DNA of 61,037 bases from Arcanobacterium sp. S3PF19. Its GTDB lineage: Bacteria > Actinomycetota > Actinomycetes > Actinomycetales > Actinomycetaceae. This document shows, one piece after another, positions 4,114-61,037 of the stretch; within the stretch, counting starts at the first letter, position 1, and every line of letters starts with the position of its first letter. The notes below the pieces were generated by a model. That model was not told the DNA's origin and ran no database searches. It saw only the letters and a program-made list of their open reading frames with translations. A program made the position numbers and the translations under genes. The stretch lies in NCBI RefSeq assembly GCF_000758825.1, contig NZ_JRMX01000004.1, positions 1 through 61,037 on the forward strand, written 5' to 3'.

Positions 4114-6294
4114 GTGTTAGAAACAGGGAAAAGCGAAGAATACAACGCACGCCATCTGCAGGTTTTGGAAGGGCTGGAAGCAGTTCGGAAACGTCCCGGG
4201 ATGTATATCGGATCAACCGATTCGCGGGGTCTGATGCACTGTGCCTGGGAAATTATCGACAATGCGGTGGATGAGGCATTGGAAGGGTATGCCGACGAGA
4301 TTACCGTTACCCTGTATGCGGACGGCTCGGTGGAAGTGGACGACAACGGACGCGGAATTCCGATCGACACCGTTCCGGGCACCGGTGCCAGCGGCGTGGA
4401 AGTTGTGTATACGAAACTTCATGCCGGCGGCAAATTCGGAGGGGGATCATATTCGGCCTCCGGCGGTCTGCACGGCGTGGGCGCGTCCGTAGTGAACGCC
4501 CTTTCCCGGCGTCTGGACGTGGAAGTGGACAGGAGCGGAAAAACGTGGGCGATGTCGTTTCGCCGCGGAGAACCGGGGATTTTTTCCGACAGCGGAACAG
4601 CTCCCGATCCCCTGGCAGATTTTTCCCCGTTCACAAGTGCTTCGGAACTGCGCGTTGTGGGGAAAATCGGAAAAAAGAAAACCGGCACGCGCGTGCGCTA
4701 CTGGGCAGACCCGCAGATTTTTCCCGAAGATGCCGTATTTGATGCCGAAGAGCTGCGCGAGAGAATCCGGGAAAAAGCTTTCCTTGTCCCGGGCCTGAAA
4801 ATTATTCTTCGCGACAGAAGACCGGCTTTCCCGGCGCACGGATCTTCGCAAGCCGGTTTGCCCGCCGCGGAAGGCAAAACCGGCAGTGCGGCGGAAAATT
4901 CGGAAGAAATTTTTTATTACGAAGGGGGAGTGCGCGACTTCGTTGAATTTTTGGCCCAGGATCCCCCGGTTACCGGGATCTGGCAGATCAGCGGCGAAGA
5001 CGTGTTTACCGAGACAGTGCAGGCACTGAACCCCGACACAGGGCATCTGCAGCCGAAAGAGGTGGAACGCCGCTGCAAAGTGGATATTGCGCTGCGGTGG
5101 GGAACCGGTTACGAAACAAAAGAACACTCGTATGTGAACATTATTTCCACGCCCAAGGGCGGCACGCATCTGGCGGGATTTGAAAACGGCCTGGTACGGG
5201 CCGTACGGGCACAGACAGAAGCGAAAAGCCGGCAGCTGAAACTCGGTTCGCGCGAGGCAAAAATCGAAAAAGACGATGTTCTCTCCGGTCTGACCGCGGT
5301 TGTGACCGTCAGTTTCCCGGAACCCCAGTTTGAGGGGCAGACAAAAGAAATACTGGGAACGGCCCCGATTCGCTCCATTGTGCAGAAAATTACGGAAACG
5401 CAGGTAACCGGGTTTCTTAAATCCGCAAAAAGGGATCGGAAAACGGAAAATCTGCGTCTGCTGGAAAAAATAGTGGCGGAGATGCGTGCCCGGGTCGCGG
5501 CCAGGACGCAAAAAGAAATTTCGCGGCGAAAAAATGCCCTGGAGTCTTCCACACTGCCGGCGAAACTGGCAGACTGCAGAAGCAGTGAAATTGAGCGCAG
5601 CGAACTGTTTATCGTGGAAGGCGATTCGGCTCTGGGAACGGCGAAGCTCGCCCGGTCCTCGGATTTCCAGGCCCTGCTGCCGATTCGCGGAAAAATTCTG
5701 AATGTGCAGAAGGCTTCCCCTGCCGAAATTCTGAAGAATGCGGAAGTGTCTTCAATTATTCAGGTGATCGGTGCCGGCTCGGGGCGCACATTCGATTTGG
5801 CTGCGGCCCGCTACGGAAAAATTATTTTCATGACCGATGCGGATGTGGACGGGGCGCATATCCGCACACTTTTGCTGACTCTGTTTTTCCGGTATATGCG
5901 TCCTTTGGTGGAGGCCGGACGGGTCTATGCCGCCGTTCCTCCGCTGCACCGGGTAGAGGTAGCCGGAAACGGGAAAAAGAAGAAAGAATATATTTACACA
6001 TATTCCGATTCGCAGCTGCACACCGTGCTGGCGAAGCTGAAAAAACAGGGGAGAAGCTATAAAGAGCCGATTCAGCGTTATAAGGGACTGGGAGAAATGG
6101 ATGCCGATCAGCTTGCCGAAACCACAATGGATCCGGCACACCGCACGCTGCGCAGGATTTCCATGGCCGACGAAGAAGCGCTGAAAACCGCCGAGGGCAC
6201 GTTTGAACTGCTGATGGGAAGTGACGTTGCCCCGCGCAGGGATTTTATTGTGCGGGGGGCGGCCAGTGTTTCGCGTTCCCGAATTGATGCCTAA
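4114..6294 (+). CDS. parE: Type IIA topoisomerase subunit B (ParE/GyrB-like)
   Basis: The 726-residue ATPase subunit of a type IIA topoisomerase. The GHKL ATPase motifs are EIIDNAVDEALEGYA and GGLHGVGASVVNALS. The TOPRIM domain carries VEGDSALGTAKLARS and MTDADVDGAHIRTLLLTL, whose acidic residues bind Mg2+, followed by QRYKGLGEMDADQL. The start is a GTG at 4114 followed by the expected YNARHLQVLEGLEAVRKRPGMYIGS. Its partner is the gyrA/parC-like gene at 8343-10745. In Actinobacteria this pair near sigA is the second set beside gyrAB at oriC, so topoisomerase IV-like decatenation is likely, though databases often label it gyrase. Confidence 0.9.
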   Translation: MLETGKSEEYNARHLQVLEGLEAVRKRPGMYIGSTDSRGLMHCAWEIIDNAVDEALEGYADEITVTLYADGSVEVDDNGRGIPIDTVPGTGASGVEVVYTKLHAGGKFGGGSYSASGGLHGVGASVVNALSRRLDVEVDRSGKTWAMSFRRGEPGIFSDSGTAPDPLADFSPFTSASELRVVGKIGKKKTGTRVRYWADPQIFPEDAVFDAEELRERIREKAFLVPGLKIILRDRRPAFPAHGSSQAGLPAAEGKTGSAAENSEEIFYYEGGVRDFVEFLAQDPPVTGIWQISGEDVFTETVQALNPDTGHLQPKEVERRCKVDIALRWGTGYETKEHSYVNIISTPKGGTHLAGFENGLVRAVRAQTEAKSRQLKLGSREAKIEKDDVLSGLTAVVTVSFPEPQFEGQTKEILGTAPIRSIVQKITETQVTGFLKSAKRDRKTENLRLLEKIVAEMRARVAARTQKEISRRKNALESSTLPAKLADCRSSEIERSELFIVEGDSALGTAKLARSSDFQALLPIRGKILNVQKASPAEILKNAEVSSIIQVIGAGSGRTFDLAAARYGKIIFMTDADVDGAHIRTLLLTLFFRYMRPLVEAGRVYAAVPPLHRVEVAGNGKKKKEYIYTYSDSQLHTVLAKLKKQGRSYKEPIQRYKGLGEMDADQLAETTMDPAHRTLRRISMADEEALKTAEGTFELLMGSDVAPRRDFIVRGAASVSRSRIDA

Positions 6295-48622: not shown

Positions 48623-50152
48623 TTACTTTTGTTTTTTTGTTCTTACTCTTATCAGACAGGATCCAAGCACGGATGCCAGCAGTATCGGCAATGCACCTGA
48701 ATTTAAGATATTTGAACCTGTCTGGGGAATAGCGCGGATATTCCCGCCTGTTGTGTTTCCGGTGTTGTTGGCGTTGCCTGCCGTGTTTCCGGTGTTGTTG
48801 GTATTGCCTGTTGTGTTTCCGGCGTTCCCGGCGTTGCCTGCCGTATTCCCGGCATTGGCGGCAGTGCTGTCTGCACCTGTGTTACCGTCTGAACCGGCGG
48901 GCGGAACAGGCTCCTTGGCCTTGATTTCCCATGTTATTTCGCGATACGGCTTCGTGATTTCACCCAGAACACTGTTTCTGAGTTCGGAGTTGGCCGGATC
49001 GTTCATAAGTGTTTTCGCAGCTTCAATTCCGCTCCAAACAGATTTCGGAAGCAAAACAGCCTTTGCTCTATATTTGCCCTGTTTGGCGGCTTTGGAAACA
49101 AAACCGGCGCCGTCTTCAAGGCGCATGCCGTCTGCGGGAGAAATTCCCTGAAGAACAGTGCCGTTTTCACGTAAATCTGTCTTGCCTTTTGGAATGGAGA
49201 CCACAACTGTTTCCTGCTCAAGTTTTTGCATATCGGTATCCAGTTTGGGCAGCACATTCCTCATCATGTCGTTTAGATAGTAGGGGTGTTTGCTGTCAAA
49301 CCAATTGCCAAACAGTTTTTTCACGGTTTTTGATGTGAAAGTCACCGCCGGCAGCTTAACGGATTTGTGATGGGCCTTTGTAACCGAGGAAACAATAGTA
49401 TCGTTCTTTTCTTTAAGTTTGCGTTTATCGGCTTCTTTCGAGGCTGCTTCCAATTCATTTTCGGGAATGGCATTCCAGTCTTTGGGGACGTCTTTATAAT
49501 TGGAAGGCATTCCTCTGTCTATGAGAGGCTGAATTACGTCTTTTTCGTATTTAATCAATTCGTCGGCTACGGCTTCATACCCGGCACGTTCTTCAGCCGG
49601 AAGGTCGGCTATAATTTTCTTGGCAGTCTCGGCATTGTAAAGATGTGCCTCGTGGTTGGCTGCCAAGAGTACCGCATATACAGCCGAAATATTTTCTGCG
49701 TCGTCAATCTTTTTGCCAACCAGTTTTGTGCGCTCGGCGATCCATGAATCCCAATTGGTATTTACATAGTTGTCTATCTGCCGGGCGCTGGTAAAATCAG
49801 TGCCGGTGCCGAATGAGCCAAATCGCTTACTGTAAAGTTTCCTGACTTTTTCCGTGCGCTCCTTTGCGTACGCATCAGTGTATTTTAAAGCCTGTTTTTC
49901 CAGTTGGTCTGCAATGTAAACTGCAAGTTCCGGGTTGTCGGAATCAATATTTTTTACTGTTTTGCCAAAAGAAAGATACTCCATTGCGGCTTCGGCCGTG
50001 GAGTAATCTTTTTGATTTTCGGCTCCCCCCCCCCGGGAAGCGGAAGTGTTGCCGGGAGCCTCTGCCGCATTTACGGGAACGGCCATTCCGGCCAAACCCA
50101 TCGTTCCCAGGAGCAAAGAGCTGAGAAAAAGTTTGGACATGGTTCGCTTCAT
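48623..50152 (-). CDS. Sortase-anchored surface protein with a G10 tract
   Basis: A 509-residue cell-wall protein. It starts MKRTMSKLFLSSLLLGTMGL, a signal peptide cut near VNAAEA, and ends with the sorting signal IPQTG, a hydrophobic helix and RVRTKKQK. The mature part is helical and charged with no domain I recognise. Before the anchor are four 10-residue repeats (GNTAGNANNT-like). Right after the signal peptide SRGGGAEN is encoded by ten consecutive G; any change of one or two would abort translation. GGAGGAAAC precedes the ATG at 50152; the frame runs on upstream without such a site. A role in adhesion is inference. Confidence 0.85.
   Translation of the reverse strand: MKRTMSKLFLSSLLLGTMGLAGMAVPVNAAEAPGNTSASRGGGAENQKDYSTAEAAMEYLSFGKTVKNIDSDNPELAVYIADQLEKQALKYTDAYAKERTEKVRKLYSKRFGSFGTGTDFTSARQIDNYVNTNWDSWIAERTKLVGKKIDDAENISAVYAVLLAANHEAHLYNAETAKKIIADLPAEERAGYEAVADELIKYEKDVIQPLIDRGMPSNYKDVPKDWNAIPENELEAASKEADKRKLKEKNDTIVSSVTKAHHKSVKLPAVTFTSKTVKKLFGNWFDSKHPYYLNDMMRNVLPKLDTDMQKLEQETVVVSIPKGKTDLRENGTVLQGISPADGMRLEDGAGFVSKAAKQGKYRAKAVLLPKSVWSGIEAAKTLMNDPANSELRNSVLGEITKPYREITWEIKAKEPVPPAGSDGNTGADSTAANAGNTAGNAGNAGNTTGNTNNTGNTAGNANNTGNTTGGNIRAIPQTGSNILNSGALPILLASVLGSCLIRVRTKKQK
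48751..48870 (-). repeat. Four 30-bp tandem repeats in the surface-protein gene
   Basis: Units start at 48751, 48781, 48811 and 48841 and share GTGTTTCCGG and GTTGCCTG. Each encodes ten residues of the Gly-Asn-Thr-rich stalk. Copy number could vary by slippage without breaking the frame. Confidence 0.8.
50025..50034 (-). repeat. G10 homopolymer inside the coding region
   Basis: Ten C on this strand are ten G in the coding strand of the surface-protein gene, about 40 codons after its start. The assembled length keeps the frame open. Confidence 0.9.
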
Positions 50153-50390
50153 GTTTCCTCCTTTTTGTATTACCAATACTTTTTCAAGACGGTAGTAAGC
50201 AAAATTATACATACAACTTAGAAATAATGTGTGCATTCTCATTTTAGGAGACGAAGAATCGCCGAAATATAATTGATACGGCCACGGTGTTTTATGTAAA
50301 GTGTAAAAATTATACATATTGCATATAACCTTGCCGGCAAAGGGGCAGGGGGCGGACCCGTAACTTTCGCGGTGCGTCTGCGCGGCGCCG

Positions 50391-50451
50391 GCAGGCGAAG
50401 AATAACCGCAGCCTGCTGCGGTAAAAGCCGCAACACGGCTTTGCGGCCTGC
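50391..50451. other. Three-way branched hairpin element
   Basis: GCAGGC (50391) pairs with GCCTGC (50446-50451) and encloses two perfect hairpins: ACCGCAG-CCTG-CTGCGGT (50405-50422) and AAAGCCG-CAACA-CGGCTTT (50424-50442). It lies in the gap between the surface-protein gene and the mini-array. It could be a structured RNA or a terminator. Confidence 0.45.
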
Positions 50452-50529
50452 CTTATGCCGGGCGGTACGCCGAATAAGAAGGGATATTGCGGACGTCCGC
50501 AGCCGTGTGCTCTGTGGGCAAAATATTAT

Positions 50530-50558
50530 TTGGCATATGGGCACGCGGTTTGTAATAT
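50530..50558 (+). promoter_or_regulatory. Promoter of the mini-array upstream of cas3
   Basis: TTGGCA (50530-50535), 17 bases, TAATAT (50553-50558). Transcription would start near 50565, about ten bases before the first degenerate repeat. TATAAT at 50556 overlaps as an alternative -10. Confidence 0.6.
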
Positions 50559-50574
50559 AATTTTTTTACCGGCA

Positions 50575-50648
50575 GAGTTTCCCGCATACGCGGGGGTGAT
50601 CCTTCTATGTTTCGTGTTCTGCCGTCTTTCCCGCATGCGCGGGGTGTT
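50575..50648 (+). ncRNA. Mini-CRISPR RNA with degenerate repeats upstream of cas3
   Basis: The first repeat (50575-50602) differs from the array repeat at two bases near its 5' end, but its last 25 bases, including the GTGATCC handle, are identical. A 21-base spacer (50603-50623) follows, shorter than the 32 of the array. The second repeat (from 50624) keeps GTCTTTCCCGCAT and the hairpin CCCGC-ATGC-GCGGG, then diverges. Cas6e cutting would release a crRNA with an almost intact 5' handle (GTGATCC then T instead of C) and an intact 3' hairpin. It resembles CreR/CreA-type guides; the target is not identified. Confidence 0.6.
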
Positions 50649-50756
50649 GACTGAGATTCAGATTGCCGCGCGTTTGAATCTCGGTCAATGGGTGAGTAAA
50701 GATGCGGAACAATCTTCCTTAAAATTCTGATTAAGAGTATATTTACCGTTAATCAG
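50649..50756 (+). promoter_or_regulatory. Inverted repeats in the cas operon leader
   Basis: GACTGAGATTCA and TGAATCTCGGTC (50649-50686) form a 12-base stem, and CTGATTAA and TTAATCAG (50727-50756) an 8-base one just before cas3. Either may be an operator or leader hairpin of the cas operon. No clear promoter is visible between them and cas3. Confidence 0.45.
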
Positions 50757-50786
50757 TGGCCGTTGCGGATTTGGAAGTTGGTAGGT

Positions 50787-53620
50787 ATGAATTGTGACAG
50801 TGCCGTTAATTCTGCATTATGGGGTAAAAAGCGGGAAGCTGACGGAGCGATGCAATGGCTCCCTCTTTCCCTGCATCTTGAAGATACGGGAAACGTTATT
50901 GGGCTGCTGTGGGATCATTGGCTGAGCCGTGGCCAGCGGGAATTGATTGAATCGTCGTTAAGCAAACGGGTCGATGCGAAAAAATTATGTCAATTTCTGG
51001 GATGCGTCCATGACATCGGTAAAGCCACTCCCGTTTTTCAGTTTCGCAAATCGTTTTCAAATTCGGAAGATTTGGATATTGCCTTAAAAAATAAGTTGGC
51101 CAATGCCGGATTTACGGATATTGATGATTTTATTGCCGATACAAAAAACTGGTCGGACAGTCATCACACAATAACCGGCCAGGCTATTCTTTCCGATGCA
51201 GGCCTGCCCAAAGGAATTTGCGCAATAGTCGGTGCCCATCACGGTAAGCCTTTGGAAAGTGATCTTGTTTGTAAAAATAATGAAGATGCGTATGCCGACC
51301 ATTACCGTCAGAGCGAAACCGAGAGTGAAAACAGTAAATTATGGCGAAAAATGCAGAATGATATTTTGGTCTGGGCTTTGAAAAGGAATGGTTTTTCCAA
51401 TGCGGGAGATCTTCCCGAGATAAGCGAGCCGGCACAGGTTTTGCTGTGCGGATTAGTGATTATGGCTGATTGGATTGCAAGCAACGAACACTATTTTCCG
51501 CTTATTTCAATAGAGCGGGATTCAACGCAGGATCAGGAAACAAGGTGTGAAAACGGGTGGAAAAAGTGGCTGCGGCACGGTTCCAAAGACGTGTGGGAAT
51601 CATTGAGCTGCTATAGCACTGTTTCGCAATTGTATAAACACCGTTTTGGGTTTTCGCCAAATAATATTCAGAAGGCACTGTATGATGCGATTTCCCGGTG
51701 CAAAGAGCCCGGAATTTTTATTCTTGAGTCGGCGATGGGCTCGGGGAAAACGGAATCTGCTTTGATCGCTGCCGAGCAGCTGGCAAATGCGGCCGGAAGA
51801 AGCGGCGTGTTCTTTGGTCTTCCAACGCAGGCGACTTCCGACGGAATATTTAAGCGTGTGGAGGACTGGCTTAAAAGTGTGAACCGCGATTTTCGGGGTG
51901 AAATTGGTTTACGCCTGGTGCACGGAAAGGCCGAGCTGAACTCGGATTATGCGCATTTGCCGCGCGGAATGCAGAACATGAATGACGGCTGCGGGGGCAG
52001 TTCTGCCGATAATGACGCAAACAACAGCGGAGTAATACTCAATGATTGGTTCACCGGGCGAAAAACCGCAATGCTGGATGATTTTGTGGTTGGCACGGTA
52101 GATCAGTTTTTGCTGGCTTCGTTAAAACAAAAGCATCTTATGCTTCGTCATTTGGGTTTAAGCAAAAAAGTTGTAATTATCGACGAAGTGCATGCCTACG
52201 ATGCGTATATGAATGAATATCTTGAAGAATCGCTTATTTGGATGGCGGCTTACGGCGTTCCCGTAGTCCTGCTTTCAGCTACTTTGCCCGCGGATCGCAG
52301 AGAAGACCTCATAAAATCTTATATGCGAGGTCTGGGATTCAAATGGAAAGAATGCGATAAGTCTAATGCTGATTTTGAAACAAATGATTATCCTTTGATC
52401 ACCTACAGCGATAAAAACCGCATAAAACAGAAATCCGCCGCAAATGACGCTGCCGATAATAAATCCGTTTCCGTAAAGAAAATTGCCGATGATGCCCTGC
52501 ATGAGGGGATTGTAAATGAACTTAATTCTTTGCTGAATAACGGAGGTGTTGCCGGAATTATAGTAAACACCGTCAGAAGAGCCCGGGAAATTTACAATGC
52601 ATGCGTTAATGTGTTTGGCGATGATGAGGTTACGCTTGTTCATTCGCAGTTTATTGCCACGGACAGGGTCTTAAAGGAGCGGCAGATTCGCGCTATGGTC
52701 GGCAAAAATGCCGACAGGCCCGATCGTGCGGTAATTATTGGTACGCAGGTACTCGAACAGTCACTTGACATTGATTTTGATGTTTTGGTTACCGATCCCG
52801 CTCCCATGGATTTATTGCTTCAGCGTGCCGGCAGACTGCACAGGCATAGGATAAAACGCCCGGCCGCCTTTAAAGATCCAATTTTGTATGTGCTGGAAAC
52901 GGGCGAACGCTATGAATTTGATAAAGGCTCCGAGTCTGTTTACGGCAGATGTTTACTTATGAGAACGCAATACTTTCTGCCGGATGTTATCAGCATGCCC
53001 CTCGATATTTCCCGGTTGGTGCAAATGGTTTACGACGCTGCGCCTTTGGATTTACGCGAAGATCTGAAAGACACGTATGACCGCGCATCCAAGCAACACG
53101 ATTCGGAGAGAAATAAAAATAAAAAAAGGCCGGAACATACCGCATTAAGAATCCTGTATTGAAAATCGGCAGAAAATCCATTATGGGGCTGTTAAACAAT
53201 TCGATTACCAATGAATCCGATGAATTTGCCTGTGCCCGGGTTCGTAACAGCGGCGAATCGATAGAAGTTATTGCCGTGAAAAAAGTCGGGAACGGTTATG
53301 GAACTTTCCGTGACTGCAAAGATATTTCCCGAGATGTTGATGATGCGCAAACCGCAATGGGGCTTGCCCGGGAAACAGTAAGACTGCCGTGGATGTTTAC
53401 GGCCAACAGCGAGCGTGTTGAGGAAACCATTGCCGAATTGGAAATAATCCGCGGGCAGCGGCAATTCCAAAACTGGGATAATCAGCCTTGGCTGCGCGGC
53501 GCCCCGGTTATTGTGTTCGATGAAAATAATAGTTGCAGACTTTCGAAATATAGAGTTACATATTCTGAAAAAAGTGGTATTGTGTGTACTGAAAGTTCGG
53601 AAGAAGAGGGAGGGAGCTGA
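50787..53620 (+). CDS. cas3: Cas3 nuclease-helicase (type I-E), with a frameshift
   Basis: Cas3 is recruited by Cascade to degrade target DNA. The HD nuclease motif is GCVHDIGKATPVF (~residue 73) with GAHHGKP later; the helicase has Walker A SAMGSGKTESA (~317), VVIIDEVHAYD (~465), LLSATLP and LLQRAGRLHRH (~678). The frame opened at 50787 stops at 53162, after RNKNKKRPEHTALRILY. The C-terminal domain (IGRKSIMGLLNNSITNESDE ... WLRGAPVIVFDENN) is in the next frame and ends at 53620. The frames join at a run of seven A (53121-53127). It may be broken, rescued by slippage, or a sequencing error. A TTG at 50763 is an alternative start. Confidence 0.85.
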
Positions 53621-53623
53621 AAG

Positions 53624-55279
53624 ATGGGCAGGTTTAATTTACTCGATGAGCCTTGGATTTCCGTCATTACAGACGAAAAAGGCCACAACGAACACGTATC
53701 GATGACCGATGTTTTTAAGCATGCCTCAGAGTATAAAACGCTTGCCGGCGATATGAAAACGCAGGATTTTGCGGTGCTTCGTGTTTTGCTTGCGGTGCTT
53801 CATACCGTGTTTTCCCGCTACGACGCCGAAGGCAATCCTCGCATATTCAGTCCCGACGACGATGATGAGGATGACTTTAATGAAGAAAGTATGAATATTT
53901 GGCGCGAAGTTTGGGACGCGAAAAAGTTTCCGGATACGGTTTTTAAATATTTGGAACAGTGGCGCGGCCGTTTCTTTCTTTTTGACGGCAGGTATCCGTT
54001 CTTCCAAGTGACTGAGCAGGATATTGGCACTGAGAAGCTTGGCGGCAAATCACCCGGCGAGATATCGGGTAAGAATATAAATCGTTTAATTTCCGAAAGC
54101 AATAATAAAATTGCGATATTTTCCCCCAAAGCGGCATTTTCCCCAAAAGGCAATAATAAGTGCGTGCTTACCGAAGCGCAGTTGGCCAGATGGATTATTT
54201 CTCTGCAGGGCTATATGGGACTATCCGATAAGACGATATTTGGGACTAAAAAGTACAAAGCTTCCAAAGGCTGGCTTTTTGATCTTGGGGGTATTTATAT
54301 AGAAGGGCGCAGCGTATTCGAAACCCTGATGCTCAATTGCGCACTTGTCGGCGATAATCAGTCTCCCAAAAATCCCCAAAAACCATGCTGGGAGTATTCG
54401 GGAACGGAAAATATCGAAAATTCATTTTCCGATACGTTCATCGATAATATCGCGCAGCTTTATACCCGTTGGAGCAGGGCAATATATGTGAATCCGGATT
54501 TGGACTGCGATAAGGAAGCAGCCGTTTCCGTTGTGAAACTTCCCGACATCGATCATAAAAATGCTTTTATCGAACCGATGACGGTATGGCAGTACAACAG
54601 GAGCGGGGAAAACAAAGACTCTTATACGCCGAGGAAACACAAACCGGAAAAATCAATGTGGAGATCGTTCGGACTTCTTACATTGCGGGAATTGAGTGAC
54701 GGAAGCAGAAATCACAAACCGGGAATTATGGAATGGCTGGACAGAATTGGTGATGCCGTTGCCGGTTCCTCTGTTTCATTGCAGGCCGTAAGTATGAAAG
54801 ATGACGGTAATGCTACGTCCTGGGTTCCTGCCGATGAAATATGCGATACTCTGCACATTGATGAGATTGTGGTAACCGATAATGCCGCCGGCGGGTGGGT
54901 ATACAGAATTAACAAAGAAGTTGAGCTTACAGGGAAAGCCGTTGGATCTGTTTACGGGAAATTTCTTCGGGATATATGCGAAATACGCAATATCGACAAA
55001 GACCAATATGCCGCTAAGCGTATCAGCCGCGTTTATTTTCTGGTTGATCAGCCGTTTAAAGAATGGTTGGCGAATATCGGACCGGAAGATTCAAAGAACG
55101 AGCGCTGCGGCCAATGGAGAAACGTGTTGCGCGGCATACTCACAGACGAGGCGGAAAATGTGCTAAGAAATGCCACGTTGCGTGATTTCACGGGCAGGGC
55201 TGCCGAAGAAACCGGAAAAAATATAGTTACGGCTTACAACACTTTTATTCATTATTTAAACAAATTAACGGAAAAGTAG
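53624..55279 (+). CDS. casA: Cascade large subunit Cse1 (Cas8e)
   Basis: A 551-residue protein starting RFNLLDEPWISVITDEKGHN, the family's hallmark, and containing the usual central domain and C-terminal helical bundle (TGRAAEETGKNIVTAYNTFI). It recognises the PAM and recruits Cas3. It begins 4 bases after the Cas3 C-terminal frame, behind GGGAGGGAG, which supports Cas3's C-terminus being translated or recently so. Confidence 0.93.
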   Translation: MGRFNLLDEPWISVITDEKGHNEHVSMTDVFKHASEYKTLAGDMKTQDFAVLRVLLAVLHTVFSRYDAEGNPRIFSPDDDDEDDFNEESMNIWREVWDAKKFPDTVFKYLEQWRGRFFLFDGRYPFFQVTEQDIGTEKLGGKSPGEISGKNINRLISESNNKIAIFSPKAAFSPKGNNKCVLTEAQLARWIISLQGYMGLSDKTIFGTKKYKASKGWLFDLGGIYIEGRSVFETLMLNCALVGDNQSPKNPQKPCWEYSGTENIENSFSDTFIDNIAQLYTRWSRAIYVNPDLDCDKEAAVSVVKLPDIDHKNAFIEPMTVWQYNRSGENKDSYTPRKHKPEKSMWRSFGLLTLRELSDGSRNHKPGIMEWLDRIGDAVAGSSVSLQAVSMKDDGNATSWVPADEICDTLHIDEIVVTDNAAGGWVYRINKEVELTGKAVGSVYGKFLRDICEIRNIDKDQYAAKRISRVYFLVDQPFKEWLANIGPEDSKNERCGQWRNVLRGILTDEAENVLRNATLRDFTGRAAEETGKNIVTAYNTFIHYLNKLTEK

Positions 55280-55302
55280 AAAAGGCGGGAAAGGAGGATA
55301 TT

Positions 55303-55914
55303 ATGGCGAAAAATCAAAGCAAATCTGCCGAAGTGTCAAATGCCGTAGGTAAAATTATCAGGCAGTTTACGCAGATTGCGGATACTTCGGCCTACAGAGC
55401 CGTGCTTGCCCAATTGCGGCATACGATCGGCAGGCCATTAAGCCAGTCTGTGGAAATATGGCCGTGGGTGCTAAGCAATGTGCCGGAAAGCTTTATCGGC
55501 AAATATGGCGAGGTGAGCTTTCAACTGCGGGCCGTTATAAACACTTTGCAGATATACGCATTGTATGAGCAGGGTGGCGCGGAAAAAGCAGGAAATAAAG
55601 ATTCGAAGGAATCCGGAAAATCCGAAGATCAAAAATCCTACGGCAATATGGGAACGGCTTTAAGGGTGCTGCGGGCCGATGAGGGTGTGCGCGGAGCTAT
55701 GGACAGACGCTTTGGCGTTATGCTTACCGCAAACGATTATGAGAGCTTCTACTACTACCTTCGCCGGCTGGTTACATTGCTGAAAAGCAGAACGAAGGAA
55801 AACCGGCAGGCTATTGATTACATCCGGTTGGCCCGCGATTTGTATTTGCTTCAGCTTGAAGACCCGGAAAAAGTAAGACTTTCCTGGGCCCGGGAATATT
55901 ATCGCTTCGGCTGA
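55303..55914 (+). CDS. casB: Cascade small subunit Cse2 (Cas11e)
   Basis: A 203-residue helical protein (AYRAVLAQLRHTIGRPLSQS ... FYYYLRRLVTLLKSRTKENR) of the Cse2 family, two copies of which stabilise the R-loop. The middle holds a Lys/Ser/Glu-rich insert (GNKDSKESGKSEDQKS). AAAGGAGG precedes the ATG, 24 bases after casA. Confidence 0.9.
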   Translation: MAKNQSKSAEVSNAVGKIIRQFTQIADTSAYRAVLAQLRHTIGRPLSQSVEIWPWVLSNVPESFIGKYGEVSFQLRAVINTLQIYALYEQGGAEKAGNKDSKESGKSEDQKSYGNMGTALRVLRADEGVRGAMDRRFGVMLTANDYESFYYYLRRLVTLLKSRTKENRQAIDYIRLARDLYLLQLEDPEKVRLSWAREYYRFG

Positions 55915-55971
55915 CAGACGCGCTTTTATAAAACAGACAACAGAAATATAAATTCGGAAAGGTTTACGACA

Positions 55972-57048
55972 ATGAATACCCGTTTATTTTTGGACATTCA
56001 GGCAATCCAAACGGTTCCGCCATGCAATATGAACCGCGATGACGCCGGCAGCCCGAAAACGGCACAATACGGCGGTGCGACCAGAACCAGAGTAAGCTCT
56101 CAATGCTGGAAACACTCAATGCGCGAATATTTCAAAGAGCACGGCAGTGACTCGAATGTAGGCATACGAAGCAAAAATATTGTTAAGTATGTTGCGGATA
56201 AAATTATTGCTTTAAAACCTGAATTATCTGAACAGGAAGCACTGGATTTATCAAATAAAGCGTTAAATAATGCCGGCGTCAAAACCGGTAACGATAAACT
56301 TCACACACTGAAAGCTTTATTCTTTTTGGGGGAAACCCAGGCGAATGCTTTGGCTCAGGCGGCAGTCGGCAACGTTACCGACAGGAAACGGCTGCAGGAA
56401 ATTTTAAAGGCCAATCCGGCCGTTGATATTGCGTTATTCGGCCGTATGCTGGCAGATGACCCCTCCCTTAACGAAGACGCTTCTTCGCAGGTCGCCCATG
56501 CAATTTCCACTCACGCTGTGCGCGCTGAATTTGATTACTATACGGCTATTGACGATTTATCCGAAGAAGACAATGCCGGGGCCGGAATGCTGGGCACAAT
56601 CGAATATAATTCCTCAACGCTTTACCGCTATGCGAACGTGGCAATACACGAGTTTGTTCATCAGCTGAATGATGACAGGGAATCGGCAATTAATGCCCTC
56701 AGGCTTTTTATTGAAGCTTTCGCCAATGCCATGCCTGCCGGGAAAGCAAATACTTTTGCCAACCAAACATTACCGCAGATGCTGGCAGTGACTTTAAGGG
56801 ACGACAGACCGGTGAACCTGGTGAGCGCATTTGAAGATCCGGTGAAATCCGGGGACGGATATGTTTCAAAATCGATCGCGAAACTTTCCCGGGAATATGA
56901 AAAAGTTCAAAAATTCGTTCATAGGCCCCTTGCGTCATTCTATGTAACAACGGATTCTTCGGACGGGCAGCTCAAATTGGGAACGGAAGAGCAGAATATG
57001 CAGAAATTATTGGACGATTTTTCCGCCAAAGTATCCGAACTGCTTTAA
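55972..57048 (+). CDS. casC: Cascade backbone subunit Cas7e (Cse4)
   Basis: A 358-residue protein starting TRLFLDIQAIQTVPPCNMNR with GATRTRVSSQCWKHSMREYF, both diagnostic of Cas7e; six copies coat the crRNA. GGAAAGG precedes the ATG. It is full length for the family. Confidence 0.93.
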   Translation: MNTRLFLDIQAIQTVPPCNMNRDDAGSPKTAQYGGATRTRVSSQCWKHSMREYFKEHGSDSNVGIRSKNIVKYVADKIIALKPELSEQEALDLSNKALNNAGVKTGNDKLHTLKALFFLGETQANALAQAAVGNVTDRKRLQEILKANPAVDIALFGRMLADDPSLNEDASSQVAHAISTHAVRAEFDYYTAIDDLSEEDNAGAGMLGTIEYNSSTLYRYANVAIHEFVHQLNDDRESAINALRLFIEAFANAMPAGKANTFANQTLPQMLAVTLRDDRPVNLVSAFEDPVKSGDGYVSKSIAKLSREYEKVQKFVHRPLASFYVTTDSSDGQLKLGTEEQNMQKLLDDFSAKVSELL

Positions 57049-57110
57049 GTAAATTACTTAATAAATAATGCTTATGGGCCAATGTTCGGTGTTTGACAGT
57101 TAGGAAGCTT

Positions 57111-57974
57111 ATGAAAAGTTTGTTATTGAAGTTTTCCGGACCGTTGCAGTCATGGGGTACAGATTCACATTTTGAGACTCGGCACACAGATTACCATCCT
57201 TCGAAAAGTGCGGTAATAGGCATGATTGCCGCGGCTTTGGGATACAGAAGAAGCGCCGATTGCGACGAAAAGATTGCAGAGCTTAATGATTTGGATTTTG
57301 CGGTACGAATCGACCGGCAGGGAAATTTGCTCAGAGATTATCATATCGCGGCAAAATACAAACCTAATGGCGATTTTGAAAGAAATTACGTTACCAACCG
57401 TTATTACCTCGAAGACGCCATATTTCTTGTTGCAATAGGTTCGGCCAACGGGCAATTCATTGACGGTATCAACGATGCTTTGCGCTCTCCGTATTTTCAA
57501 TCCTGCTTAGGCAGAAGATCGCTGCCTCCTACAGCCGACTTTATTCTGGGCACACAAGACTGCGGAGTGCTTCAGGCATTGTTGACTCATGAGTGGCTTG
57601 CGGGAAAAACCGGGAAAAATCGGATTAAGATTTCCAAATTATCCGGGATATCCGAATCTTTCGGCAAATCGGACAACGGAAAATTTGTATCTTTATATGC
57701 CGATTCGGATTTAGTGGATAAAATTGCGGGCAAATTGGGTAAGGAATATAAAATTCAGTCAGCGGTGCGCAGGCTGCGTAAGGATTACGTTAATTCTTTC
57801 TCAAACGCAGAGAGAAAATTCGGATTCCGTTACGAGTCGAAAATAGAAATACCCATTGACAAAATTTTTCGCGGCAATTCGGATTCGGAAAGTATTTCGT
57901 CAGACAGCAAGCAGGTAAAATCTGCCGGAGATTTTAATGCCGAGCATGATGCATTTTCCGGATTGGAGGCATAG
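57111..57974 (+). CDS. casD: Cascade subunit Cas5e
   Basis: A 287-residue protein with the Cas5e N-terminus (KSLLLKFSGPLQSWGTDSHF) and HPSKSAVIGMIAAALGYRRS-like second motif. It caps the crRNA 5' handle. The ATG at 57111 follows TTAGGAAG. The C-terminal ~40 residues are Ser/Asp-rich and extend beyond the usual family length. It abuts cas6e with no gap. Confidence 0.9.
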   Translation: MKSLLLKFSGPLQSWGTDSHFETRHTDYHPSKSAVIGMIAAALGYRRSADCDEKIAELNDLDFAVRIDRQGNLLRDYHIAAKYKPNGDFERNYVTNRYYLEDAIFLVAIGSANGQFIDGINDALRSPYFQSCLGRRSLPPTADFILGTQDCGVLQALLTHEWLAGKTGKNRIKISKLSGISESFGKSDNGKFVSLYADSDLVDKIAGKLGKEYKIQSAVRRLRKDYVNSFSNAERKFGFRYESKIEIPIDKIFRGNSDSESISSDSKQVKSAGDFNAEHDAFSGLEA

Positions 57975-58619
57975 ATGTCTTACTTAAGCAGAGTTGAAAT
58001 TGATTATAAAAAACCCAAATCGCAGATAGATCTTAAATCGGTGGGGGCTTTCCACAATTGGGTGGAGCAGAGTTTTCCGGAAGAATGGGAAAATCGCGAA
58101 AGAAGCCGAAAGCTATGGAGAGTTGATGTTTTGCGGGGAAAACATTATCTGCTTATAGTAAGCGACTCGACACCGGATTTGCGGCGTCTGGAGACGTACG
58201 GTGTTGCCGGAACGGCGTCGGCCAAGAATTATGATAAATTTTTAAATTCGCTGAGAAATGGCATGAGAATGCAATTTAGGGTGACTCTTAACCCGGTTGT
58301 TTCCATTTCCGACACTCCTGACGCCCGTACTTCCAGAGGCAGGGTGGTGCCGCACGTTACTTATGCTCAGCAGATGAATTTTTTGCTTGACCGTGCGCAA
58401 AAATTAGGCTTTTCACTGAATGAAAACGAATTCACCGTCATTGAGCGCGGATACAGCCTGTTTATGAAATCCGTAAAACCCATTCGCTTAAGTAAAGCCG
58501 TTTACCAAGGCATTTTAACAATTAGCGACGCGGACGTGATGCGCAAAACATTGGTTGAAGGTATCGGAAAAAAGAAAGCGTATGGTTTTGGCATGATGAC
58601 TGTGATCCCGTTGGGATAA
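57975..58619 (+). CDS. casE: CRISPR RNA endonuclease Cas6e (Cse3)
   Basis: A 214-residue protein starting YLSRVEIDYKKPKSQIDLKS and ending with the Gly-rich RNA-binding loop GIGKKKAYGFGMMTVIPLG. The candidate catalytic His is in LKSVGAFHNWVEQSF. It cuts the repeats to make crRNAs and would process both the main array and the mini-array. Confidence 0.92.
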   Translation: MSYLSRVEIDYKKPKSQIDLKSVGAFHNWVEQSFPEEWENRERSRKLWRVDVLRGKHYLLIVSDSTPDLRRLETYGVAGTASAKNYDKFLNSLRNGMRMQFRVTLNPVVSISDTPDARTSRGRVVPHVTYAQQMNFLLDRAQKLGFSLNENEFTVIERGYSLFMKSVKPIRLSKAVYQGILTISDADVMRKTLVEGIGKKKAYGFGMMTVIPLG

Positions 58620-58624
58620 CTTAA

Positions 58625-59602
<978 letters not shown>

Positions 59603-59603
59603 C

Positions 59604-60698
59604 ATGCCTTTAACCGTAATCACAATGACGAACTGCACACCGTCGCTTCGCGGTGATTTAACTAAATGGATGCAGGAAATTGCCACCGGCGTTTACGTTG
59701 GCAATTTCAACGGCAGAGTTCGGGAAGAATTGTGGAAGCGTATAGAAGACAGTGCGGGGAACGGTGCCGTAACGATGAGTTTTGCTTCCGGAAATGAAAT
59801 CGGATACGACTTTAAGACTATTCATTCCCGGCGGGAAGTAGTTTATTTGGACGGGCTGCCTTTGGTTCGTATTCCTTCGGCTGATACGGACAATATTAAA
59901 CACGGATTTATCAATGCCGCACATTTTCACAACGCAGGTAAATTTTCAAATGTCCGGCATAAAAGAAATATTAATATTTCTCCCGATGCAACCGAAAATA
60001 ATTTTTCTAATGAAAATGCCGGTTCCCTAAGCTGCGCCAATACTTCGCGGCCTGCAAGATCGGCTGCAAATAGCGAAGAAATAACCCGCAGCGACTGCCG
60101 GAAAGATCATATCGGTAAAATAAATAAAAATTTTGTTGTAATAGATTTTGAAACCACAGGTTTAGACAGCAAAGAAAACAAGATTATTGAGATCGGCGCC
60201 GTTAAGTTTACCGATGGAAAAATTGAGGAATTTCAAACGCTAATTAACGTTAATTGCGCTAAAGACGCCGCTAGCGCGGATGTCGGTATCGGGAAAAATT
60301 ATTCTGTAACGAAGAATATTACCCAAATGACCGGTATCACGAATGAAATGTTGGATTTATACGGCGTTGGGCTGTCGGACGCTCTGCCTGATTTTTTGAA
60401 TTTTACAGGTAGCCTACCGATAGTTGGGTATAACGTATTTTTTGACCTGGCTTTTTTGAAAGCTGCCATATTATCGGCAGATATGCAGGCTGACTGTAGT
60501 ATTATTTCCAATAATGCTGTTTTTGACGTAATGCGTTTTGTAAAAAAGGATAAAATGTTTTTGCGGGATTATAAGTTGGAAACTGTTCTGCGCGAGTATG
60601 GCATTGCCGAACCGGTTTTGCACCGGGCTCTGCCGGATGCCAGATTGACTTCCCGCCTTGTGCTTAAAATAAGGAGGTTATTAAATTTAATCCCTTAG
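59604..60698 (+). CDS. cas2: Cas2e fused to a DEDDh exonuclease
   Basis: A 364-residue fusion, about four times the length of plain Cas2e. Residues 1-~95 are Cas2e (LTVITMTNCTPSLRGDLTKW, YVGNFNGRVREELWKRI). A variable linker of ~75 residues follows. Residues ~173-364 are a DnaQ-like nuclease: FVVIDFETTGLDSKENKIIE, IVGYNVFFDLAFLKA and HRALPDARLTSRLV supply D-E-D-H-D. Such fusions are known in several I-E loci and trim prespacer 3' ends before integration. All catalytic residues are kept. The stop lies 101 bases before the array. Confidence 0.92.
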   Translation: MPLTVITMTNCTPSLRGDLTKWMQEIATGVYVGNFNGRVREELWKRIEDSAGNGAVTMSFASGNEIGYDFKTIHSRREVVYLDGLPLVRIPSADTDNIKHGFINAAHFHNAGKFSNVRHKRNINISPDATENNFSNENAGSLSCANTSRPARSAANSEEITRSDCRKDHIGKINKNFVVIDFETTGLDSKENKIIEIGAVKFTDGKIEEFQTLINVNCAKDAASADVGIGKNYSVTKNITQMTGITNEMLDLYGVGLSDALPDFLNFTGSLPIVGYNVFFDLAFLKAAILSADMQADCSIISNNAVFDVMRFVKKDKMFLRDYKLETVLREYGIAEPVLHRALPDARLTSRLVLKIRRLLNLIP

Positions 60699-60799: not shown

Positions 60800-61037
60800 G
60801 TCTTTCCCGCATACGCGGGGGTGATCCCTGGGGCCAACAGCGCAGGGCCCTCGCACAGGCGTCTTTCCCGCATACGCGGGGGTGATCCCGAGACAACACT
60901 GCAATGGCGTGTACGCACCAAGTCTTTCCCGCATACGCGGGGGTGATCCCAATAGTTATATGGCAAGAGGAGAACTGAAAGTGTCTTTCCCGCATACGCG
61001 GGGGTGATCCCGGTGTTGAATGGGGCGATGCGTGCAT
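60800..61037 (+). CRISPR. Type I-E CRISPR array, continues past the window
   Basis: Four identical 29-base repeats at 60800, 60861, 60922 and 60983, beginning GTCTTTCCCGC and ending GCGGGGGTGATCCC, with the stem CCCGC/GCGGG. Three complete spacers of 32 bases (60829-60860, 60890-60921, 60951-60982) and a fourth cut off by the window end. Orientation is that of the cas genes. I could not match any spacer to the window by eye. Confidence 0.97.

Follow-up and report, generated by a model that had tools for sequence, protein, structure and literature searches.

In the present study, we analysed a 61,037-nt stretch of Arcanobacterium DNA (hereafter the window) and found, upstream of cas3 in a type I-E CRISPR-Cas locus, a unit of two degenerate repeats and one short spacer which is very probably a CreR-type guide gene, the Cascade-bound guide repressing the Cascade and adaptation genes by negative feedback. 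As far as sequence can tell, the unit appears to be a well-supported CreR guide directed against the Cascade genes, with a function that is predicted. The initial annotation of this DNA had suggested a self-regulating, CreR-like guide, and the suggestion has gained support from the conservation of the unit, from a PAM-flanked target for its 11-base seed and from paired changes in guide and target.

The window is part of a 1.49-Mb genome (G000) that carries a type I-E system. The genes cas3, cas8e, cse2, cas7, cas5, cas6e, cas1 and cas2 each scored above the cut-off of a type I-E or cas3-domain model, the split cas3 falling under the cut-off of the full-length model, and the gene set is that of a type I-E CRISPR-Cas locus. 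In the window, cas3 is read in two frames (799 aa up to 53162, and 153 aa at 53159-53620). This split (region 53121-53162) comes from a one-base difference from the five relatives at or near the A7 run 53121-53127, and could be any of a sequencing error, phase variation or slippage; because of it, activity of the system in the Arcanobacterium strain cannot be asserted. The cas3 stop codon lies at 53618-53620 and cas8e starts at 53624. Two side observations were made here, a Cas2e-DEDDh exonuclease domain fusion at 59604-60698 and, adjoining the locus on the minus strand (48623-50317), a protein that by eye looks secreted, carries Asn/Gly/Thr repeats and ends in a sortase-like PQTGS motif, for which there was no NCBIfam match.

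The canonical array has the 29-nt repeat GTCTTTCCCGCATACGCGGGGGTGATCCC and 32-nt spacers. Elsewhere in G000, solitary CRISPR repeats were seen within phage-like DNA, at about 4320-4348, 5277-5304 and 5467-5495 of L063 (C6) and, on the minus strand, at about 3323-3351 of L064 (C5). Two of them share an identical one-base deletion and one lies inside an open frame. Decoys resembling RNA anti-CRISPRs are one possible explanation and stray insertions another. In addition, L063 has an array piece at 1-1010 whose final repeat is followed directly by a phage gene that looks lysin-like by eye; the junction may have arisen in assembly, at a phage-matching spacer. The viral contigs L125 (3926-3943) and L126 (1813-1830) each hold a single 5' part of the repeat with its hairpin and without the handle.

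Anatomy and conservation of the probable guide gene

The coordinates of all features are collected in Table 1. Repeat 1 departs from the array repeat at three bases (2, 3 and 29), base 29 being T in all six genomes that carry the unit and C in 18 of the 20 array repeats counted in the window genome. The earlier description of a repeat altered near its 5' end, with the handle kept save for its final base, therefore holds, and so does that of repeat 2, which kept its hairpin and differs at loop base 14 and within the final eight bases. The two degenerate copies of the array-type repeat were also rightly recognised; the 21 bases then given for the spacer reflect a 28-nt repeat count, and with the 29-nt repeat the spacer has 20 nt (32 minus 12). 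Two unlike degenerate repeats around a single 20-nt spacer do not make a canonical array. A two-repeat, one-spacer mini-CRISPR beside cas genes and outside the array, as is characteristic of CreR, was found in 6/6 genomes. The predicted Cas6e cut was placed at repeat base 21 by analogy with S. thermophilus and E. coli (PMC3890593).

Table 1. Positions of the guide gene, its target and neighbouring features in the window
Feature	Position	Strand	Description
Probable guide promoter	50530..50561	+	TTGGCA 50530-50535, TAATAT 50553-50558, overlapping TATAAT 50556-50561
Clamp stem, 5' arm GGCAGA	50571..50576	+	partner in the precursor RNA: TCTGCC 50618-50623, the 3' end of the spacer
Repeat 1 GAGTTTCCCGCATACGCGGGGGTGATCCT	50575..50603	+	degenerate at 5' end
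5' handle GUGAUCCU	50596-50603	+	predicted Cas6e cut after 50595
Spacer, 20 nt	50604..50623	+	seed TCTATGTTTCG = 50604-50614
Repeat 2 GTCTTTCCCGCATGCGCGGGGTGTTGACT	50624..50652	+	hairpin and 5' part retained, 3' end altered; Cas6e predicted to cut after 50644
Second hairpin, after repeat 2	50647..50688	+	3/10 pairs changed on both sides; from the fold; without T run
Conserved block before cas3, possible cas3 promoter	50710..50747	+	from alignments
cas3	50788 (or 50763)..53620	+	split into two frames in the window
Target	53535..53557	-	PAM AAC 53557-53555, protospacer TCTATATTTCG... 53554-53535; match at 1-5, 7-11
Low-synonymous-change block between target and cas8e, possible cas8e promoter	53558..53590	+	from codon comparison
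Genes predicted to be regulated	53624..60698	+	cas8e, cse2, cas7, cas5, cas6e, cas1, cas2e-DEDDh exonuclease domain fusion; from profile models
Canonical CRISPR array, first part	60800..61037	+	29-nt repeat, 61-nt period; continues past contig end

The promoter noted earlier before repeat 1, TTGGCA-17-TAATAT (50530-50558), was the sole promoter-like match in 50450-50800. It agrees with the consensus at 9/12 positions, shuffled sequences average 0.5 matches, and taken alone it is a weak indication. A TATAAT stands 11 nt from repeat 1 in 5/5 relatives and 13 nt from it in the window, and this element of the relatives gives the putative promoter better support than the consensus match of the window does. 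Rfam gave no match in 50100-50800 at E values up to 1, and 50540-50800 was without match in a plasmid collection.

In a Cas3 search of 112 genomes, 56 had some match; five reached 78-79% identity (Gardnerella swidsinskii, G. vaginalis 1500E, Bifidobacteriaceae NR021 and two more genomes of the same genus), and the next stood at 38-45%. Within the window's own family, 92 of the 200 sampled genomes had a Cas3 match, the long ones being 28-44% identical apart from the own genome. These 200 included none of the 112 genomes of the other search, so that the window genome presumably belongs to a different family from the Gardnerella-group relatives and the locus has presumably moved between families. 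The guide unit stands upstream of cas3 in 5/5 of the other genomes with a close cas3, which argues that the observed anatomy is not due to chance, and the spacer has 20 nt in 6/6. These six genomes make up two well-separated lineages, the window and the five Gardnerella-group genomes (cas3 90-95% identical among themselves), and are not six independent tests. Comparison with related genomes had been put forward earlier as a check, with free erosion of the repeats as the adverse outcome; neither repeats nor seed decay freely in any of the six. The seed TCT[A/G]TGTTTCG is common to all and varies at base 4 alone. In the 3' part of the spacer, four relatives depart from the window at two bases, and the fifth (G310) at nearly all.

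Pairing of the RNA was evaluated on the six-genome alignment, with slid alignments as controls. Across both repeat hairpins and the one that follows repeat 2, standard pairs fill 98.3% of 120 cells (at most 49% in slid controls) and 4/20 pairs are changed on both sides, including one compensatory pair (C-G/U-A) in the hairpin of repeat 2, which lends indirect support to Cas6 processing of the predicted guide RNA. The altered 3' end of repeat 2 forms the 5' arm of the hairpin that follows; this hairpin is possibly the end or a stabiliser of the guide transcript. Furthermore, a clamp stem, which the initial annotation had not mentioned, joins the 5' flank of repeat 1 to the 3' end of the spacer. 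Four relatives have GATAGA or GATAGG with TCTATC; over the six genomes 35/36 cells are paired, and 4/6 pairs are altered on both sides, two via the window and two via G310. The stem of G310 is weak (5/6 pairs, U-rich) and absent from its minimum-energy fold, in which repeat 1 pairs with repeat 2. The clamp appears in the minimum-energy folds of 5/6 RNAs, alongside the repeat-1 hairpin in three of them (window, G201 and G202). Single-sequence guide RNAs fold weakly better than shuffles, with z of -0.1 to -1.9 in five and -3.4 in G310. Its presumed purpose, a clamp on the precursor, would account for the variable 3' part of the spacer.

The target before cas8e

A seed scan without a PAM condition was run on five sequences, those of the window and of four relatives. 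Apart from the guide, every one of them gave a single full match to bases 1-5 and 7-11 (53554-53544 in the window); the sixth genome (G305) carries the orthologous site. With AAN before the seed and the correct base 4, exactly one match per genome was found genome-wide in 6/6 genomes, one extra AAN-flanked site in G000 having G at base 4, a mismatch to its own guide. PAM and seed-matched stretch (53544-53557, minus strand) end 66 nt upstream of cas8e, within the codons Ser-Lys-Tyr-Arg-Val close to the end of the cas3 frame and about 2.9 kb from the guide. Such seed complementarity with a PAM just before cas8e, unique in each genome given the right base 4, is what characterises CreR, and the place matched by the seed may well control cas8e.

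The genome search for the seed beside a PAM had been proposed in the initial annotation, which looked to the cas3 promoter above all. It yielded the single correct-base match upstream of cas8e, at the 3' end of cas3, and the expectation of a target in the cas3 promoter failed, no match with up to one seed mismatch being present there. The remark that 50100-50800 holds no seed target was right, again with up to one seed mismatch allowed. Of the AAG-like PAM that had been expected, the AA part stands; the PAM is AAN (AAC here) and not AAG in particular. The S. thermophilus I-E repeat GTTTTTCCCGCACACGCGGGGGTGATCC, counted as 28 nt and used with an AA PAM before a 33-nt protospacer (PMC3890593), is almost the same as that of the window, and AA before 33 nt equals AAN before 32 nt. 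For in vitro binding in that system, only A or T at -1 was required (PMC3890593). The conserved block at 50710-50747 has no seed match with up to one mismatch and no consensus promoter was scored in it; partial matches noticed there by eye were dropped, as bases 1-2 or 4 failed.

Several controls bear on these counts. The reversed seed pattern gave 4 matches across the six genomes. The guide region was also tried from 452 start points, both strands included; the seed alone had an AAN-flanked match in 6/6 genomes and the others reached two at most. With the PAM condition lifted, two start points matched in six genomes, of which the second is the seed pairing read from the opposite strand, and those that came next matched in three. 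Shuffled seeds matched the window's 8 kb in 56 of 20,000 trials.

Guide and target also change together. At base 4 they are A/A in the window, G202 and G305, and G/G in G200, G201 and G310; on the cas3 tree ((G200,(G202,G305)),(G201,G310), window) this demands at least two paired changes, and on the target side the codon still reads Tyr (TAT/TAC), a synonymous difference. All guides have G at base 6 and all targets have A, a mismatch in 6/6. Base 6 is not read by Cascade; pairing at 1-5/7-11 with base 6 free ties the guide to Cascade and not to plain antisense pairing. For CreA, mutagenesis showed that bases 1-5 and 7-11 are each needed together with the PAM and that 6 and 12 are dispensable (PMC8501985). 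At and just past the target, 11/14 codons are unchanged vs 36/79 elsewhere (Fisher p 0.04, for a stretch picked after the alignment had been seen); this modest signal of low codon change would fit an overlapping cas8e promoter.

Candidate guides in other type I-E loci

A wider scan covered 59 loci (54 distant, 5 close) with 888 overlapping seed tests, and was noisy, with 24 matches without mismatch and 36 with one, where five shuffle rounds gave 7 and 87. Only cases in a hairpin context were accepted, by inspection. Six distant loci (L034, L038, L040, L042, L111 and L114) have targets upstream of cas3 on the plus strand, and one (L102, genome G235) has its target on the minus strand between cas3 and cas8e. 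One seed mismatch each is present in L038 and L042, L113 is a candidate one-mismatch case, and in L039 a similar repeat and seed were seen but no target. At base 6 there is a mismatch in L102, L040, L042, L111 and L114 and a match in L034 and L038. By eye, L102 has a hairpin and then a T run where the window has its second hairpin. The initial handle scan (75 seeds, one register) had recovered L034 alone among the accepted cases, the others having been missed because of its register.

A stricter scan was given 79 loci, 78 of which had at least 300 nt before cas3, and considered 32 candidate guides. Without mismatch it returned 4 loci (L040 and three of the Gardnerella group; shuffles 0.05 per round), and with one mismatch 3 (L038, L042 and L141; shuffles 0.55 per round), the L141 site lying upstream of its own guide. 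Because of its stem rule, L089 and L090, which belong to the five loci of the Gardnerella group, escaped it, as did L034, L102, L111 and L114. Taken together, the scans suggest that such I-E guides may recur in Actinobacteria in two sorts, aimed at cas3 or at cas8e. This recurrence bears on how the effector level is set and on the answer to phage inhibitors.

Proposed mechanism and known systems

For the steps from transcription to the physiological trigger, we infer the following course. A short RNA would be transcribed from the guide gene's own promoter, and Cas6e would cut both repeat hairpins. The resulting guide, about 49 nt long, would consist of an 8-nt handle, the 20-nt spacer and a 21-nt 3' hairpin; it would be loaded into Cascade and would bring it to the site before cas8e through the 1-5/7-11 pairing and the AAC PAM. 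Such pairing should be too short for Cas3 cleavage, which is not expected with 10 paired bases, and the bound Cascade would block transcription of the Cascade and adaptation genes; in an I-B system, spacers of up to 24 bp led to repression without interference (PMC10989794). When array crRNAs, phage inhibitors or a low level of Cascade draw Cascade off the guide, cas8e and the downstream genes would return.

The step at which transcription is stopped is the least sure part of this mechanism. Occupancy of the cas8e promoter seems most likely. No consensus sigma-70 promoter was found at 53400-53680, so promoter occlusion rests on the modest codon signal and on G235, where an unrelated guide matches the equivalent site and the complement of its PAM, GTT, runs by eye into a good promoter, TTGCGA-17-TATAGT, ahead of cas8e. 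The same lack of a consensus promoter, together with the tight gene packing, speaks for an elongation roadblock, a variant of our explanation that differs in the last step alone: with no promoter for cas8e, Cascade at the end of cas3 would stop polymerase coming from the cas3 promoter and so uncouple cas3 from the Cascade genes. We regard this variant as unlikely, if worth keeping in view, since a stop at 53557 would leave a cas3 mRNA without its stop codon; the G235 site adjoins a promoter, the targets of L040, L111 and L114 overlie, by eye, -35 or -10-like hexamers upstream of cas3, and the codons past the target show little change.

Very improbable is a cis-acting leader RNA, whose hairpins would control cas3 from within the 5' region of that gene, with no part for Cascade. 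Conserved hairpins and a clamp stem upstream of cas3 would suit it, but a separate conserved block stands between the hairpins and cas3, and this reading does not account for the seed, the PAM and the co-variation at a distance of 2.9 kb. The initial annotation had also considered an antitoxin guide of the CreTA type that represses a toxin, and the architecture is alike, with two degenerate repeats and one spacer adjoining cas genes. This reading has lost nearly all its ground, as no frame of at least 20 codons starts between repeat 2 and cas3 (a count blind to shorter or RNA-only toxins), the genome has no AAN-flanked seed match with the right bases other than the cas8e site, and that site is kept in 6/6 genomes. 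We give hardly any credence to an ordinary or decaying mini-array with a phage-immunity spacer or a relic of one, for although a 20-nt pattern covering the spacers of the window and four relatives was found in 7 viral contigs (0 for the scrambled control), all 7 share identical flanks, as one gene family would, and have GGT at the PAM position instead of AAN, so that they were rejected as a phage target, and seed, spacer length, hairpins and target are retained across lineages whose cas3 differs by 22%.

Returning to the feedback guide, we tentatively extend it to a sub-class of I-E guides that may regulate Cascade apart from Cas3, with a control site in the last cas3 codons, so that a Tyr codon and a seed 2.9 kb away evolve as a pair, and with the same solution reached by an unrelated guide in G235. 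Spacer bases 1-11 would then read DNA and bases 15-20 would only close the clamp, perhaps shaping repeat 1 for Cas6e. The feedback idea can be tested by exchanging base 4, a substitution that occurs naturally in both guide and target.

Guides of the CreR kind are already known, including in type I-E: CreR are cas-regulating RNAs through which Cas proteins of types I-B, I-E and V-A repress their own production (PMC13131331; also treated in PMC12737573 and PMC12948488). Our literature search on CreR with Bifidobacterium found nothing, and the titles returned on Gardnerella type I-E and on autoregulation from upstream of cas3 gave no sign of such a case, the original CreR paper being outside the scope of that search. 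What sequence alone has yielded in the present study is a CreR-type guide together with its target, present in Gardnerella and seemingly in a second actinobacterial family.

Compared with the I-E array of the same locus, the guide shares the repeat hairpin, the handle and the predicted Cas6e processing, whereas it has one 20-nt spacer and not many of 32 nt, unlike degenerate repeats and a seed conserved across genera. Racr RNA anti-CRISPRs are solitary repeats on phages. They resemble the guide as ectopic repeats that would load into Cas complexes, and differ from it in that the guide is chromosomal, lies within the cas locus and has a conserved self target. CreA of CreTA likewise has two degenerate repeats with the handle of repeat 1 kept, and needs seed bases 1-5/7-11 and the PAM with 6 and 12 free (PMC8501985); in contrast, the guide of the window has no recognised toxin gene and its target lies before cas8e. 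With CreR it has in common the mini-CRISPR by the cas genes, the crRNA-like guide, the limited complementarity to a possible cas control place and the predicted negative feedback, and it differs from CreR, as far as the papers cited here describe it, in the position of the site, which lies ahead of cas8e within the last part of cas3 and 2.9 kb away from its guide, and in the clamp stem that links the 5' flank of repeat 1 to the 3' end of the spacer.
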